Shown: positions 31,815 through 58,138 of the stretch, in pieces
How positions within the stretch are numbered: position 1 is the first letter of the stretch
Layout of the letters: every line of letters begins with the position of its first letter
Source of the DNA: Jiangellales bacterium
GTDB lineage: Bacteria; Actinomycetota; Actinomycetes; Jiangellales; Jiangellaceae
Assembly: GCA_030447955.1 (NCBI GenBank)
Contig: JAUJNY010000001.1
Coordinates: forward strand, 185,209 to 249,208
DNA: 64,000 nt
Direction: 5' to 3'
Program-made: the position numbers and the translations under genes
The notes under the pieces: generated by a model
Databases searched by the model: none
Seen by the model: only the letters and a program-made list of their open reading frames with translations
What the model was told of the DNA's origin: nothing

Positions 31815-31867
31815 ACGACCTGAGCACAAGGCGATGGCTGTCGGCGAGCGGGGTTAGGGTGCGATCC

Positions 31868-52569: not shown

Positions 52570-52744
52570 TCCGTTCGTGGGGACGCAGCCACCTCCACAC
52601 ATGGCCATGGACACCCGCACTCAAGCACGCTCGATGCAGAGCCGGGATGCGCCGTCGACGCCCAAGCGACGGATGGAGTGTCGGCGCCCGGGGTTAGGTT
52701 CGCGTCGTCCTGAACGCTCCGAAGTAGAGGAGGTTGCAGGGATC

Positions 52745-53809
52745 ATGACGAGACCCGCTCTCGCTGTTCCGGCACCGCACCACAACCTGTCCCTGCTCAG
52801 CCTGACGGGGGAGCACCCGCGCGACACACCACTGGCCATGGCAAAGATCGCAACTATGGACGGCACGTATCCCTTCTCGGCCGGCCGGGATGTCCCAGGC
52901 CGTCAGCGCCCCGCAGACGTCCTGCCGCCCGGCGCTCAAGTCATCGCTAGCTACGATTCCCCTGACTACAGCGCCACATGGGCTCGCTGTGGCGACGGCT
53001 CCGTCATCGTCTTGGAGTTTCCGAGCCAAACGCAGGTCGTCGCCATGGCCCGCAGCGCGACGGCCGCCTCTGGGCTCCTTGAGCGTGTCGTCGTGCGGTG
53101 CGCCGAGCCCGTCAACGACGACGTACGGGCCGTGCTCTGGCTGCTCGGCCAGAACGGCCCGACGCGGCAGCCGCGGAAGTTCCAGACGCCACCCTGGGAA
53201 CAGGTCGCCCGCAACTACCCGGCGGGCACCGCCCGACAGATCACCGCACTGCTAGAGGCAGGGACGCCCACCGGCTCCGGACGGCTCCTGCTATGGCATG
53301 GTCCGCCCGGCACGGGCAAGACCAGTGCCGTCCTGGCATTGCTCCACGCCTGGCGTCACTGGTGCGCCGCCGACGTCATCGCTGACCCGGAGCGCATGTT
53401 CGGGGACGCCGGTTACCTCGTCGAGGTGCTGGCTCAGCCCACGATGAGACGGCCGTGGCGACTCATCGTGTGCGAAGACGCGGACGAGTACCTGCGAAGT
53501 GACGCGCGTCAACGATCAGGCCCTGCTCTGGGCCGGCTGCTCAACGCCTCTGACGGGCTGCTGGGGCGGGGAGGTCGCAACCTGGTTCTGCTGACGACCA
53601 ACGACGAGCTGGGCCGCCTGCATCCCGCAGTTACCCGCCCCGGCCGCTGCCTGTCACTAATCGATTTCGGGCTGTTCTCCGCGACGGCAGCCGGGGCGTG
53701 GCTGGGACGGTCCGTGACGCATCCGATGTCGCTGGCCGAAATGTACGAGCAGCAGAGCGGCGGGCAACGTATTGGCCGCGAGCCGTTGCCGATCGGGACC
53801 TACCTGTGA
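52745..53809 (+). CDS. AAA ATPase with DUF5925-type N-terminal domain
   Basis: A 354-residue ATPase. Residues 1-150 form a DUF5925-like domain (GDGSVIVLEFPSQTQVVAMA); a second part (about 150-330) is a classic AAA module: Walker A WHGPPGTGKTSAVLAL near 184-199, Walker B WRLIVCEDADEYL near 238-250, sensor-1 LVLLTTNDELGRLHPAV near 281-297, and arginine-finger region TRPGRCLSLIDF near 298. Most like FtsH/CbbX-type AAA proteins. GAGGAGG lies 11 nt before ATG 52745. Its GTGA overlap with the next gene makes an operon with two DUF6308-like genes. The target is unknown. Confidence 0.82.
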   Translation: MTRPALAVPAPHHNLSLLSLTGEHPRDTPLAMAKIATMDGTYPFSAGRDVPGRQRPADVLPPGAQVIASYDSPDYSATWARCGDGSVIVLEFPSQTQVVAMARSATAASGLLERVVVRCAEPVNDDVRAVLWLLGQNGPTRQPRKFQTPPWEQVARNYPAGTARQITALLEAGTPTGSGRLLLWHGPPGTGKTSAVLALLHAWRHWCAADVIADPERMFGDAGYLVEVLAQPTMRRPWRLIVCEDADEYLRSDARQRSGPALGRLLNASDGLLGRGGRNLVLLTTNDELGRLHPAVTRPGRCLSLIDFGLFSATAAGAWLGRSVTHPMSLAEMYEQQSGGQRIGREPLPIGTYL

Positions 53810-54441
53810 GCGCCCTCGTCATTGGCGGCCGGCCGCTGCACGACGCCATGGACCTGGTCCGTCGCTACTGCGGGCTTCCTTGGAGCGGCGGGGCCGACGA
53901 GACGTGGGCCTATCGGTATTTCGATGCTGTCGACGTCGAGCGGTCTGACCGGGTCGAACCGGTCGACGTCCTGGCCGCCGCGGCATTGCACCCCGGGCTG
54001 AGACATGCAGACCTCACATGGTTCTGGCAGCACCGCGATGACCTTGTGCGGCTACTGAAAGATTTGCCACCGGCCGTCGACCTCGCCGACGCCGATGGGC
54101 GCGTCGTCGCAGCCGTTCAGGCCCTGCCGCGGCAACTGTCTGAAGCTGCCCCCGGGCTCAGCCTGCTGACCAAGGTGTTGCACCGAAAACGACCGCGGCT
54201 CGTGCCGATGCTCGATCGGGCACTGCTCGATCGCTACCGAGCGAGATTGCCCGGACGCGGCACAGAGTCCTGGGCGCGGCTGGTGGAGGCCCTACGCGAC
54301 GATCTCACCGTGCCCGCGAACGCGCGCATCCTAAGTGAACTGGCCGACTCGTTGTCCGGCGACTTGCGCGCGGTGCCGACGCACCTACGGCTCGTGGACA
54401 TCGCCGTCTGGATGCAGGCACGCACGAGGATCGAAGGATGA
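53806..54441 (+). CDS. DUF6308-like protein, first copy
   Basis: A 211-residue, mostly helical protein from a GTG overlapping the AAA stop. The core GLSLLTKVLHRKRPRLVPML followed by DRALLDRY (near residues 117-145) and the end LRLVDIAVWMQAR match the second copy, and resemble DUF6308 (conserved S/T-K-L-x-R-K-R-P ... P-x-x-D). No catalytic motif is recognised. RKRP...D signatures of this type hint at a nucleic-acid-related fold, but that is inference. Cotranslated with the ATPase. Confidence 0.7.
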   Translation: MSALVIGGRPLHDAMDLVRRYCGLPWSGGADETWAYRYFDAVDVERSDRVEPVDVLAAAALHPGLRHADLTWFWQHRDDLVRLLKDLPPAVDLADADGRVVAAVQALPRQLSEAAPGLSLLTKVLHRKRPRLVPMLDRALLDRYRARLPGRGTESWARLVEALRDDLTVPANARILSELADSLSGDLRAVPTHLRLVDIAVWMQARTRIEG

Positions 54442-54510
54442 TCAGCATCCGGGTTGCTTGGGGCCATCGGGACAGATGGCCGTGTCACCGAAAGGGGAGC
54501 GGACGTTTCA

Positions 54511-55224
54511 ATGGATGTGACAGACATGACCATGGTCAGGGTCGGCGGCCAACAGGTGCCGCGCGACGAGGCGATGACGTTCGCTCGGGACTACCTCGGC
54601 GCCCAACCCCCTTGGCGTTCGGCCTACCCCGCCTACGACTCCTACGAGGCTGCGCGGGCGCGGGGGCCGTTGACCGAGGCTGACCTGCTCGCGCCGGCGC
54701 TGCTGAACGTGCAGCAGATGAGCCTGCGCGCGTATTACGAGCTCCTCGAGGCGCTCCCGCGGCTGTCGTCGCTACTGGACGACCTGGATCCAGAGCTCAG
54801 CCTCGTTGCGGCACAGCCGGATCACCTGCACGCAATCGGGGCGCTGTACGGCGTGCTCGACGACAGTGATGTGCACGGGACGCGCGGAACGCGGCTGAGC
54901 AAGATCCTGCACCGGAAGCGGCCAGCGCTCATTCCCCTCTACGACGAGCAGGTCCGCCGCTGCTACCAGGTTGGCGAGGGCACGCACGGTCAGGGCGCTC
55001 CCGTGCCGCCCGTGAAGGGCCGATCCTGGGCCGACTTCATGGTGGCTTTCGCTGGCGCCGTACAAGAGGATCTCGTCACCCAGCTCGACACCTGGGAGGC
55101 AATCGCCGGCCTCGCCGCCGACCCACCCATCACCCCGCTCCGGGCGCTCGACATCATCGCCTGGCACGCAGGTGCTCCCTTGTCACGGCCGCGTCAGCGT
55201 CGACCATCCCGGGTTAGGACCTGA
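54511..55224 (+). CDS. DUF6308-like protein, second copy
   Basis: A 237-residue paralogue of the preceding protein: TRLSKILHRKRPALIPLY with DEQVRRCYQVGEG (near residues 127-157) and LRALDIIAWHAGAP at the end. The N-terminus differs (VPRDEAMTFARDYLGAQPPW). The 69-bp gap, with AGGGGAG about 12 nt before the ATG, keeps it in the same operon; MTMVRVGG at 54526 is an alternative start. Its 3' end overlaps the convergent HNH gene (its last ~40 bp), as the HNH reading frame runs on after a frameshift. Confidence 0.7.
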   Translation: MDVTDMTMVRVGGQQVPRDEAMTFARDYLGAQPPWRSAYPAYDSYEAARARGPLTEADLLAPALLNVQQMSLRAYYELLEALPRLSSLLDDLDPELSLVAAQPDHLHAIGALYGVLDDSDVHGTRGTRLSKILHRKRPALIPLYDEQVRRCYQVGEGTHGQGAPVPPVKGRSWADFMVAFAGAVQEDLVTQLDTWEAIAGLAADPPITPLRALDIIAWHAGAPLSRPRQRRPSRVRT

Positions 55225-56546
55225 AGCCTCAACTCTCGCTGAGCCGGCGTGGCATCCCGCTGGGTCGTATTGCGGCCAGCGGCAAGAGCTCAGGCTGCGC
55301 GGGGTGGGCGTAGTCGTTTGATGTGGTGGGGCGAGTGGGGGTGGGCGGACTTGGTATTGGCGGCCGGTGGGGGTGGTCCAGGTGAAGACGCCGGGGTGGT
55401 GTTGGTGGAGGTGGAACCCGGCTTGTTTGGCGCGGTGGTGACGCCGGCAGGGGGGCCGAGGTTGCCGGCCGTGGTGGGCCCGTCGGGGTGGGCGATGGTG
55501 TGGTCGAGGTCGCAGTACTCGGCGGGGACGGTGCAGGTGGGGAAGCGGCAGTCCTGGTCGCGGGCGATGACGTGCCCGGCGAGCACAACACCGGGGTCGT
55601 GGGTGTCGGCGGCGTAGTCCAGTAGGGAGCCGGTGGGCGGGTCGGTAAGGATCCGGCGCCAAGTAGCGTCCTGAGCGATGCGCCGTGCCATGGACGCGGG
55701 GATGGGTCCATACCCGGCGAGCCAGCCGGGTTCGTCGCTGACACCGAGGAGGGTGTCCGCGCCGACGGTGACGTGCAAATGGGGGCGGGCGCGGCGCCGC
55801 CCGGCCAGTGGTATCCCGGCTAGCCCGCCGGCGTCGCAGATGGCCCGGCCGAGCTCGAGCAGGGTGTCGGTGCGGAGGTGGCCCAGGGTGCGCGCCTCCT
55901 CCGGGTCGCGAAGCTTCGTGCGGGCGACCCCATCGAGGGCGGTGTACAGGGCGGTGATGCCGTCGGCGGGGCCGTACACCCACAGACAGGCCATCCCGTC
56001 CTCGTCGGGGCGGCGTTCCACCCGCCGCTGCGCACGGGCCCGGTGGTGGCGCGCCTCCCCACCGGCGGGGTCGGCGGCCAGCACCGCGCGGCGCAACGCG
56101 GCGCGCAGCTGCGGAGCGCTCTGCTCGGGTGCCCGGGGCAGCACCCGCGCCTCCACCGCGGCGACCTGATCCTGGTCGGGAAGCCGGGCGGTGGCCTCCA
56201 CCACGCAGCGGGCCCGGTAGTAGTCCAGCCCGCCGGACTCCAGCGCGGCCAGCGTGGCGGGCAGCCGGGTGCTCAGCTGCTGGGCCACCCACATCCGGTC
56301 CCGCGCCGCGTTCGGGCTGATCCGGATCGCCAGCGACACCTCATCGGGGACGAACTCGGCCAGCCGGGTGCCCCGACGCGCCGCCTCCAGCGCGGCCATC
56401 GCCCGCAGCTGCACCGCGTGCAGGCGGGCGACCTCTCGCTCACAAAACTCGATAACGTCGAGCAGCCCATCCGGGTCGGCCGGCAGCGGGCTAGCGGCTG
56501 CCGGCGATGCAGCGACTGGTGCGCTCCGGTCCGGTGTCTCGAACAT
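55183..56546 (-). pseudogene. DUF222-HNH endonuclease (13E12-like), frameshifted
   Basis: An actinobacterial DUF222 plus HNH protein. DUF222 region: VIEFCEREVARLHAVQLRAM, VSLAIRISPNAARDRMWVAQ, LDYYRARCVVEATARLPDQD; then VTVGADTLLGVSDEPGWLAG and the HNH core DQDCRFPTCTVPAEYCDLDH, PDGPTTAGNLGPP. At 55450-55455 (six G on the plus strand) the frame shifts; one extra C on the coding strand yields the required CRRHHRAKQAGFHLHQHHPG, giving a full HNH (His-Asn-His) with C4 zinc ligands, running to a stop at 55183. It overlaps the convergent DUF6308 gene. A LexA-type box covers the start codon. Confidence 0.8.
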
Positions 56547-56554
56547 GTGTTCGA
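56539..56554 (-). promoter_or_regulatory. LexA (SOS) box over the HNH start codon
   Basis: TCGAAC (56539-56544), ATGT, GTTCGA (56549-56554) is a perfect 16-bp palindrome matching the Gram-positive LexA consensus CGAAC-N4-GTTCG. On the minus strand a TAGGAT box (complement of 56554-56559) is 7 nt before the ATG at 56546, so LexA would sit on the start of a leaderless transcript. SOS control of DUF222-HNH (13E12) genes is known in mycobacteria. Confidence 0.75.
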
Positions 56555-56648
56555 TCCTAGGGGAAGCTACCGACAGTCGTTGGGACTAGGGAGGAACTGT
56601 GGATGAGATCAAGAACTAGTTCTGCCGAACCGCTCAGCCAGCCGCGCG

Positions 56649-57323
56649 TTAGCGGGCGCGCCGACGCAGCCGGTCGAGGTCGAGCAGCACCACCGACCGT
56701 TGCTCGAGCCGGATCCACCCCCGGTGGACGAAGTCGGCCAACGCCTTGTTGACCGTCTCTCGGGAGGCGCCCACCAGCTGGGCAAGCTCCTCTTGGGTGA
56801 GGTCGTGGGAGACCCGGATCCCGTCCCGGGAGGCGGCGCCAAAGCGTTGGGACAGGTCGAGCAGCGCCTTGGCCACTCGACCGGGGACGTCGGCGAAGAC
56901 GAGGTCGGCCATGGCCTCGTTGGAGCGGCGCAGCCGCTGCGCGATCTGGAGCAGCAACCCCCGCGCCACCTCCGGTCGACCGGTGAGCAACGGCAGCAGG
57001 TCCTCGTGCCCCAGGCCGAGCAGCATCGAGTCGGTGACCGCCGTGGCGGTAGCCGAGCGCGGCCCGGGGTCAAACAGCGATAGCTCCCCGAACATCTGGC
57101 CGGGCCCAAGGACGGCCAGCAAGTTCTCCCGGCCGTCCGGGGCCGTACGGCCGAGCTTGACCTTGCCCTCGATGACGACGTACACCCGATCACCGGCGTC
57201 GCCCTCGCGGAAGAGCACTTGCCCGCGGGTAACGCGCACCTCGTCCATGGAGTCCCGCAGCGCGGCAGCTGCCTCGTCGTCGAGCTCGCGAAAGAGTGGG
57301 GCGCTGCGCAACGCGTCGTCCAC
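56649..57323 (-). CDS. crp: Crp/Fnr-type regulator (GlxR/Cmr-like)
   Basis: Global cyclic-nucleotide-responsive regulator, 224 residues. The cNMP domain starts DDALRSAPLFRELDDEAAAA; GQVLFREGDAGDRVYVVIEG and MFGELSLFDPGPRSATATAV contain the phosphate-binding cassette with Glu and Arg. The winged helix has TQEELAQLVGASRETVNKAL near 170-190. Closest to actinobacterial GlxR/Rv3676. GTG 57323 is chosen because GGAGGAGG is 8 nt upstream; the ATG at 57407 lies inside the nth promoter. Divergent from nth. Confidence 0.9.
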   Translation of the reverse strand: MDDALRSAPLFRELDDEAAAALRDSMDEVRVTRGQVLFREGDAGDRVYVVIEGKVKLGRTAPDGRENLLAVLGPGQMFGELSLFDPGPRSATATAVTDSMLLGLGHEDLLPLLTGRPEVARGLLLQIAQRLRRSNEAMADLVFADVPGRVAKALLDLSQRFGAASRDGIRVSHDLTQEELAQLVGASRETVNKALADFVHRGWIRLEQRSVVLLDLDRLRRRAR

Positions 57324-57400
57324 GTCCGCTGCCTCCTCCCGACCTTCCGACGCCAGATCATCGCCGCTGCGGGCGCCGGACGCCACCGTAGGCTGGGCCG

Positions 57401-58138
57401 GTGCCACGCCGGACCTTCGCCACGGAGTCGCGTACGGCGCTGGTACGGCGGGCCCGGCGGATCAACCGCGAGCTCGAGGTCACCTACCCGGACGCGCACT
57501 GCGAGCTTGACTTCGCCGACGCCTGGCAGCTGCTGGTCGCGACGATCCTGTCCGCCCAGACCACCGACAAGCGGGTCAATCTGGTCACCCCCGTGCTCTT
57601 CGCGCGTTATCGGACTCCCGCCGACCTGGCGGCCGCCGAGCTCGCCGACGTCGAGGCCATCATTCAGTCCACCGGGTTCTTCCGGGCCAAGTCCCGCGCG
57701 GTGGTGTCGATGGCGCAGGCGGTCTGCGAGCGGTTCGGCGGTGAGGTGCCCAACCGGCTGGAGGACCTGGTCACGCTGCCGGGCGTCGGCCGTAAGAGCG
57801 CCAACGTGGTCCTCGGCAACGCCTTCGGGACTCCCGGCATCACCGTCGACACTCATGTCGGGCGGCTGGCGCGCCGCTTCGGCTGGACCACGCACGACGA
57901 CCCCGTCAAGGTCGAGCACGACCTGGCGGCGTTGTTCCCCCGCCGCGACTGGACGATGCTGTGTCACCGGCTCATCTGGCACGGTCGCCGGCGCTGCCAC
58001 TCCCGCCGGCCCGCGTGCGGCGTGTGTCCGGTGGCAAGGCTCTGCCCCTCGTACGGCGCTGGGCCCACCGACCCCGTCGTGGCCGAGCGGCTGTTGCGCG
58101 ACGTCGAGCCCGACACCGTGAGCGAGGGTGCGACGTGA
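57401..58138 (+). CDS. nth: Endonuclease III
   Basis: Base-excision repair glycosylase/AP lyase for oxidised pyrimidines, 245 residues. Helix-hairpin-helix [14 protein letters not shown] with catalytic Lys132, catalytic Asp150 in [13 protein letters not shown], and the [4Fe-4S] ligands Cys199, Cys206, Cys209, Cys215 (C-x6-C-x2-C-x5-C). GTG start, 6 nt after TAGGCT, without a Shine-Dalgarno. Overlaps the Nudix gene by 4 bp. Confidence 0.95.

Follow-up and report, generated by a model that had tools for sequence, protein, structure and literature searches.

The DUF222-HNH locus and its protein

In the window, i.e., the whole 64,000-nucleotide stretch of the Jiangellales bacterium contig that was analysed, we identified a DUF222-HNH (13E12-like) gene on the minus strand (55290..56546), with an open frame of 418 aa in which DUF222 (PF02720) scores 100.7 bits against a cut-off of 24.4 (E = 1.3e-28). 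The start of this gene is covered by a predicted LexA operator (SOS box), TCGAACATGTGTTCGA (56539..56554, unstranded), which was recognised by sequence match and whose register is kept in relatives. The ATG start codon (56544..56546, minus strand) lies within the box, and the first codons read Met-Phe-Glu. The -10 hexamer TAGGAT (56554..56559, minus strand) has its last T in common with the box, and the minus-strand reading of the two is TAGGA-TCGAACACATGTTCGA. In agreement with the initial annotation, the end of TAGGAT is 7 nt from the ATG (56559-56554 vs. 56546-56544), and the sequence supports its view that a putative LexA operator covers the start of a DUF222-HNH gene that looks leaderless. 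Its description of the box as a full 16-bp palindrome goes a little too far: the 16-mer matches the consensus TCGAAC-N4-GTTCGA at all consensus bases, but only 14 of the 16 positions are symmetric, the two central bases being asymmetric.

The LexA box and TAGGAT were thus correctly read at the outset, whereas a third element at exact spacing had been overlooked. The RecA-NDp promoter consensus was reportedly given by Gamulin in 2004 as TTGTCRGTG-N8-TANNNT. The window promoter, CTGTCGGTA-N8-TAGGAT, fits this consensus with an element on the minus strand (56568..56576; PafBC-type) that agrees with TTGTCRGTG at 7 of 9 positions and stands exactly 8 bases before the -10 hexamer.

Upstream on the same strand is a gene for a Crp/Fnr-type regulator (56649..57407, minus), whose end is separated from the RecA-NDp element by 72 bp; a promoter shared with this gene as the sole one was rejected, given the promoter-like stretch in the 102-bp gap. 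On the other side, domain matches identify a unit encoding an AAA-DUF5925 protein and two DUF6308 proteins (52745..55224, plus strand). The link to this unit that had been drawn initially holds only in part: the unit is convergent and forms a separate transcription unit, so that an operon with the DUF222-HNH gene was rejected, but it has a RecA-NDp-like element of its own, GTGTCGGCG-N8-TAGGTT (52678..52700, plus), about 45 bp before its start (ATG at 52745). Because this element precedes it, the AAA-DUF5925/DUF6308 unit may also be a damage-response unit. Elsewhere in the window, a RecA-NDp-like element (31838-31860, plus) ends 7 nt before a GTG start of dnaX (31868), again in a leaderless layout.

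The gene had been taken to encode a nuclease. Membership in the DUF222-HNH family stands, but nuclease function is doubtful for the window copy, in which no complete HNH motif lies in one frame: the open frame holds its first half, and the second half is recognisable in another frame beyond a run of six C (55450..55455, minus), where the HNH reading frame changes. Frame breaks occur in 4 of the 8 DUF222 genes of this genome (L007, L009, L011/L012 and the window copy) and may come from decay or from assembly. The intact paralogue L010 contains a complete HNH motif (E = 4e-5), and we used its predicted model (mean pLDDT 87.8; 92 for the N-terminal helices predicted alone) for structural comparison. 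The C-terminal part of this model aligns with the HNH parts of TagI, EcoKMcrA and IscB, a predicted likeness to McrA/IscB-type HNH nucleases. The predicted N-terminal helices align with the DNA-binding domains of Noc, ParB and KorB: the top 14 structural matches are Noc, ParB, Spo0J and KorB (Z from 9.0 to 6.1, with the next match at 5.5), a fold match that concerns the model of L010 and not that of the window copy. Sequence-level and Foldseek comparisons are less clear-cut. Foldseek gave no match at E <=0.001 for the full or the N-terminal model (0.3 for the latter), hhalign gave a probability of 65% for a ParB/Noc-type domain with family alignment A5 and 13% with A1, Pfam HTH_ParB was found in 1 of 57 family members (E = 0.0077), and there was no solved DUF222 structure among the sequence matches. 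Judging by the models, the family likely binds DNA by a ParB-like domain and cuts it by HNH, and intact members are probably sequence-specific DNA endonucleases that combine a ParB/Noc-like helix-turn-helix with an HNH domain.

LexA boxes and RecA-NDp elements in the genome

Across the window, we found 4 boxes with at most 2 mismatches vs. 2.03 expected, so that only the exact site is notable. In the 2.27-Mb genome, there are 3 exact boxes vs. 0 for the reversed pattern, and 18 boxes with at most 1 mismatch vs. 4 in the control; several of these 18 fall within open frames and look like chance sites. The three exact boxes sit at the window gene, at the DUF222 gene L010 and at locus L002, where the first codons are Met-Phe-Glu as in the window gene. 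No Pfam domain was found in the L002 frame opened by the box, and in the stretch 1501-2700 of this locus an unrelated open frame is followed by a 3' tail that resembles the tail of the window gene. Given the shared first codons and the window-like tail, we read L002 as a probable DUF222 remnant and, counting it as such, we read every exact box in the genome as belonging to the DUF222 family. One-mismatch boxes were identified upstream of lexA (two) and recA (one), at dnaB (L021, identified by Pfam) and at the DUF222 gene L009. The initial annotation had asked whether lexA and recA carry this box or a different one, and both carry it, with one mismatch in each box. The box starts 5 bases after the start of the -10 hexamer at the window gene, L010, L002 and dnaB, and 6 bases after it at L009. 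Five of the 8 DUF222 genes of the genome have no LexA box.

The RecA-NDp element, in contrast, is present at all 8 of these DUF222 genes (L004, L005 and L006 have one identical promoter sequence, so these counts are not independent), as well as at recA, lexA, dnaB and the remnant L002. The three close copies L004, L005 and L006, with their single promoter element, probably reflect recent duplication in the genome. Matches to the element depend on its distance from the -10 hexamer: in 85 kb of loci from this genome (a length that includes overlaps between loci), the N8 spacing gave 15 matches and ten other spacings together gave 1, and within the window the N8 spacing gave 3 matches vs. 1 for the other spacings. 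When sites were selected genome-wide for at most 1 mismatch and an intact TANNNT, 7 of the 15 best sites precede DUF222 genes; the remaining sites precede recA, lexA, ligA, a RadA-like gene, an Eco57I-type methylase, a DUF4238 gene, a proline dehydrogenase and a gene for one protein without a Pfam match. The company of recA, lexA, ligA and RadA-like genes supports the reading of this sequence element as a putative damage promoter. The DUF4238 gene (L260) follows a perfect RecA-NDp element and the Eco57I-type methylase gene (L269) follows a one-mismatch element.

PafC (PF19187) was not found in the source genome, the assembly of which is 82% complete, and is present in 20 of 20 family relatives. 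Three WYL-domain proteins were considered as PafBC and judged otherwise by their frame lengths, N-terminal sequences and neighbours.

The start-embedded operator in relatives and across the class

A search with a three-sequence alignment yielded 80 named relatives, of which 77 were usable (3 were dropped at contig edges). A box near the start was identified in 36 of the 77 (19 exact, 17 with one mismatch), vs. 0 exact and 3 one-mismatch boxes elsewhere in the loci of the same relatives (473 kb). A TA-containing hexamer usually adjoins the box, and in 22 of the 38 relatives that have a box with at most 2 mismatches, the start codon occupies box positions 9-11 (18 ATG, 4 GTG/TTG, as assessed by eye). 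The distribution is uneven, with boxes in 36 of 58 relatives outside Lentzea vs. 0 of 19 in Lentzea. Seven of the 77 relatives have both elements, 29 the box only, 5 the RecA-NDp element only and 36 neither; in the phylum loci (29, or 24 once 5 cut by contig ends are left out), the corresponding numbers are 3, 8, 2 and 11. A combined scan of 37 loci (8 from this genome, 29 from other genomes) shows a box with at most 1 mismatch near the expected start in 14 of them, although this set keeps the 5 contig-cut loci, for which distances are unreliable. An alternative layout, with the box between -35 and -10, was seen at the DUF222 genes L047, L050 and L053. The search of viral contigs yielded 33 stretches, none of which was confirmed as a relative of the three-sequence query; a phage origin therefore has no support here.

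The combined pattern of -10 hexamer, box and ATG, TANNNTCGAACNNATGTTCGA, was detected in 70 of the 393 genomes of the class vs. 0 for the reversed control. We read 111 of the 120 sites listed, the other 9 being too near a contig end. TANNNT is present at all 111 by construction of the pattern, and its commonest form is TAGAAT. Reading from the in-box ATG gives an open frame of no fewer than 100 aa at 88 of the 111 sites, and Pfam identified DUF222 in 70 and UvrD in 2 of these 88 frames. By profile, DUF222 lies downstream of 82 of the 111 sites, in the in-box frame for 75; of the 29 sites without a profile match, 12 have fewer than 700 bases of contig remaining. Since DUF222 follows most sites, this 21-base sequence motif is nearly a signature for DUF222 genes. 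The base profile over the 75 DUF222 sites shows a -35 and also a TGTCGG element, which corresponds to the RecA-NDp motif. TGTC stands exactly at -16 from the -10 hexamer in 41 of the 111 start-embedded sites, compared to no more than 5 sites for any of 22 other offsets, and the N8 element reaches at least 7 of 9 matches in 23 of the 111.

A candidate two-signal promoter

From the elements, their spacing and their recurrence, we infer with a probability of roughly 0.7 that the window gene has a leaderless promoter in which a LexA operator extends across the end of the -10 hexamer and the start codon, combined with a RecA-NDp element through which PafBC would act. In an undamaged cell, LexA bound to the operator would block RNA polymerase. 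Upon damage, RecA on single-stranded DNA would induce self-cleavage of LexA and the operator would be cleared, while PafBC, separately activated, would aid the polymerase at the same promoter. Full output at the single start site would need both LexA release and PafBC, in which case the gene would be expressed chiefly when damage is strong or of both kinds combined.

Control of such genes by LexA is not new in itself. Some of the 10 M. tuberculosis 13E12 genes are counted in the LexA regulon (PMC4181829) and five putative HNH endonucleases appear among the RecA-dependent genes (PMC8151990); the LexA regulation of 13E12 genes in M. tuberculosis that the initial annotation named is therefore already published, as regulon membership or as RecA-dependent induction by mitomycin C of HNH/13E12 genes (PMC4181829, PMC8151990). 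The extended motif reported for M. tuberculosis, MKWMTCGAAMRYWTGTTCGA, has a WTG register like that of the boxes described here (PMC4181829). Compared to these 13E12 genes, the box here contains the start codon and abuts the -10 hexamer across the family and the class, and some family members combine it with a RecA-NDp element in one promoter. PafBC is described as working via RecA-NDp with no need for LexA or RecA, and several genes, e.g., mycobacterial recA, have both this element and an SOS box (PMC6789036, PMC8223512); the mycobacterial dual-element genes likewise place two damage pathways on one gene (PMC8223512). The lexA gene of M. tuberculosis is leaderless, with transcription and translation starting together (PMC2897130); it is a different gene, and the accessible text of that paper does not describe an operator over the ATG. 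Thus, LexA control of such M. tuberculosis genes and genes with both elements are known, whereas a family-wide account of the start-embedded layout was not found in the literature searched (some subscription papers were outside reach), nor was a paper naming both 13E12 and PafBC.

The arrangement of the two elements differs within the source genome. The lexA and recA promoters have their LexA boxes further upstream than the RecA-NDp element and separate from it, whereas at the DUF222 genes and dnaB the box abuts the -10 hexamer of the RecA-NDp promoter (at dnaB, a composite like that of the window gene, the order is RecA-NDp, -10 and then the one-mismatch box), so that a single start would be subject to repression as well as activation. 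With the box set against the RecA-NDp -10, as at the window gene, dnaB, L009, L010 and L002, LexA would block a PafBC-activated start, from which the requirement for both signals follows as a reading.

Several observations count against the two-signal promoter, and some of them would fit plain LexA repression, in which nothing but the box has a regulatory role and the bases that resemble RecA-NDp are those of an ordinary promoter: the window element matches at only 7 of 9 positions, no PafC was found in the 82% complete genome, and 29 of the 36 box-bearing relatives have no good RecA-NDp element, the two elements being often apart outside the source genome. We consider this explanation unlikely given that the exact N8 spacing recurs here and at 8 of 8 DUF222 genes, 5 of them without a LexA box, that the matches are specific to this spacing, and that recA, lexA, ligA and the radA-like gene share the element. 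The absence of the box from all 19 Lentzea copies also speaks against the two-signal promoter, as does the broken HNH frame in the window copy and in 4 of 8 copies overall. The frame break at the C run, together with the other broken copies and one remnant, would be expected of a decaying locus, i.e., a pseudogene with a fossil operator and no present function. Such decay, which is compatible with the two-signal promoter, seems possible though somewhat doubtful, as the box, the -10 hexamer and the RecA-NDp spacing are intact and the other frame still encodes a recognisable second half of HNH, so that the break would be recent or a homopolymer assembly error.

It is also conceivable that the palindrome is kept for the first residues of the protein, or because the HNH enzyme itself targets it, and not for LexA, as many family members begin with a Met-Phe-Glu/Asp encoded by the box and the predicted resemblance of the N-terminal part to DNA-binding ParB/Noc domains would allow self-binding. 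This is highly improbable under the observed pattern of conservation: both half-sites are kept, including the non-coding side upstream of the start, the same type of box is found at lexA, recA and dnaB and at two UvrD genes elsewhere, and L047, L050 and L053 have it outside the coding frame. A chance palindrome, with which the lack of excess in the window at up to 2 mismatches would agree, is refuted by the reversed controls, which are zero in both the genome and the class.

Beyond the promoter, we tentatively propose that DUF222-HNH is a family of site-specific nucleases, each a ParB-like DNA-binding part joined to HNH, with an SOS operator in the first codons, such that LexA control would travel with each copy, and that part of the family has a leaderless PafBC/LexA promoter opening only when both damage pathways fire; we hold this wider claim to be less likely than not. 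DUF222/13E12 genes are repeated and little-characterised actinobacterial genes, and a fixed start-codon operator that recurs across the class would make damage control part of what the family is. The promoter is a simple natural setting in which to test how repression by LexA and activation by PafBC combine at one start, the ParB-like reading suggests a testable role for the DUF222 domain, and the 21-base motif can be used to search for the family. The UvrD helicase genes with a start-embedded box, only two among the 88 frames, are L136 (by Pfam) and L242 (taken from 48% identity to L136).
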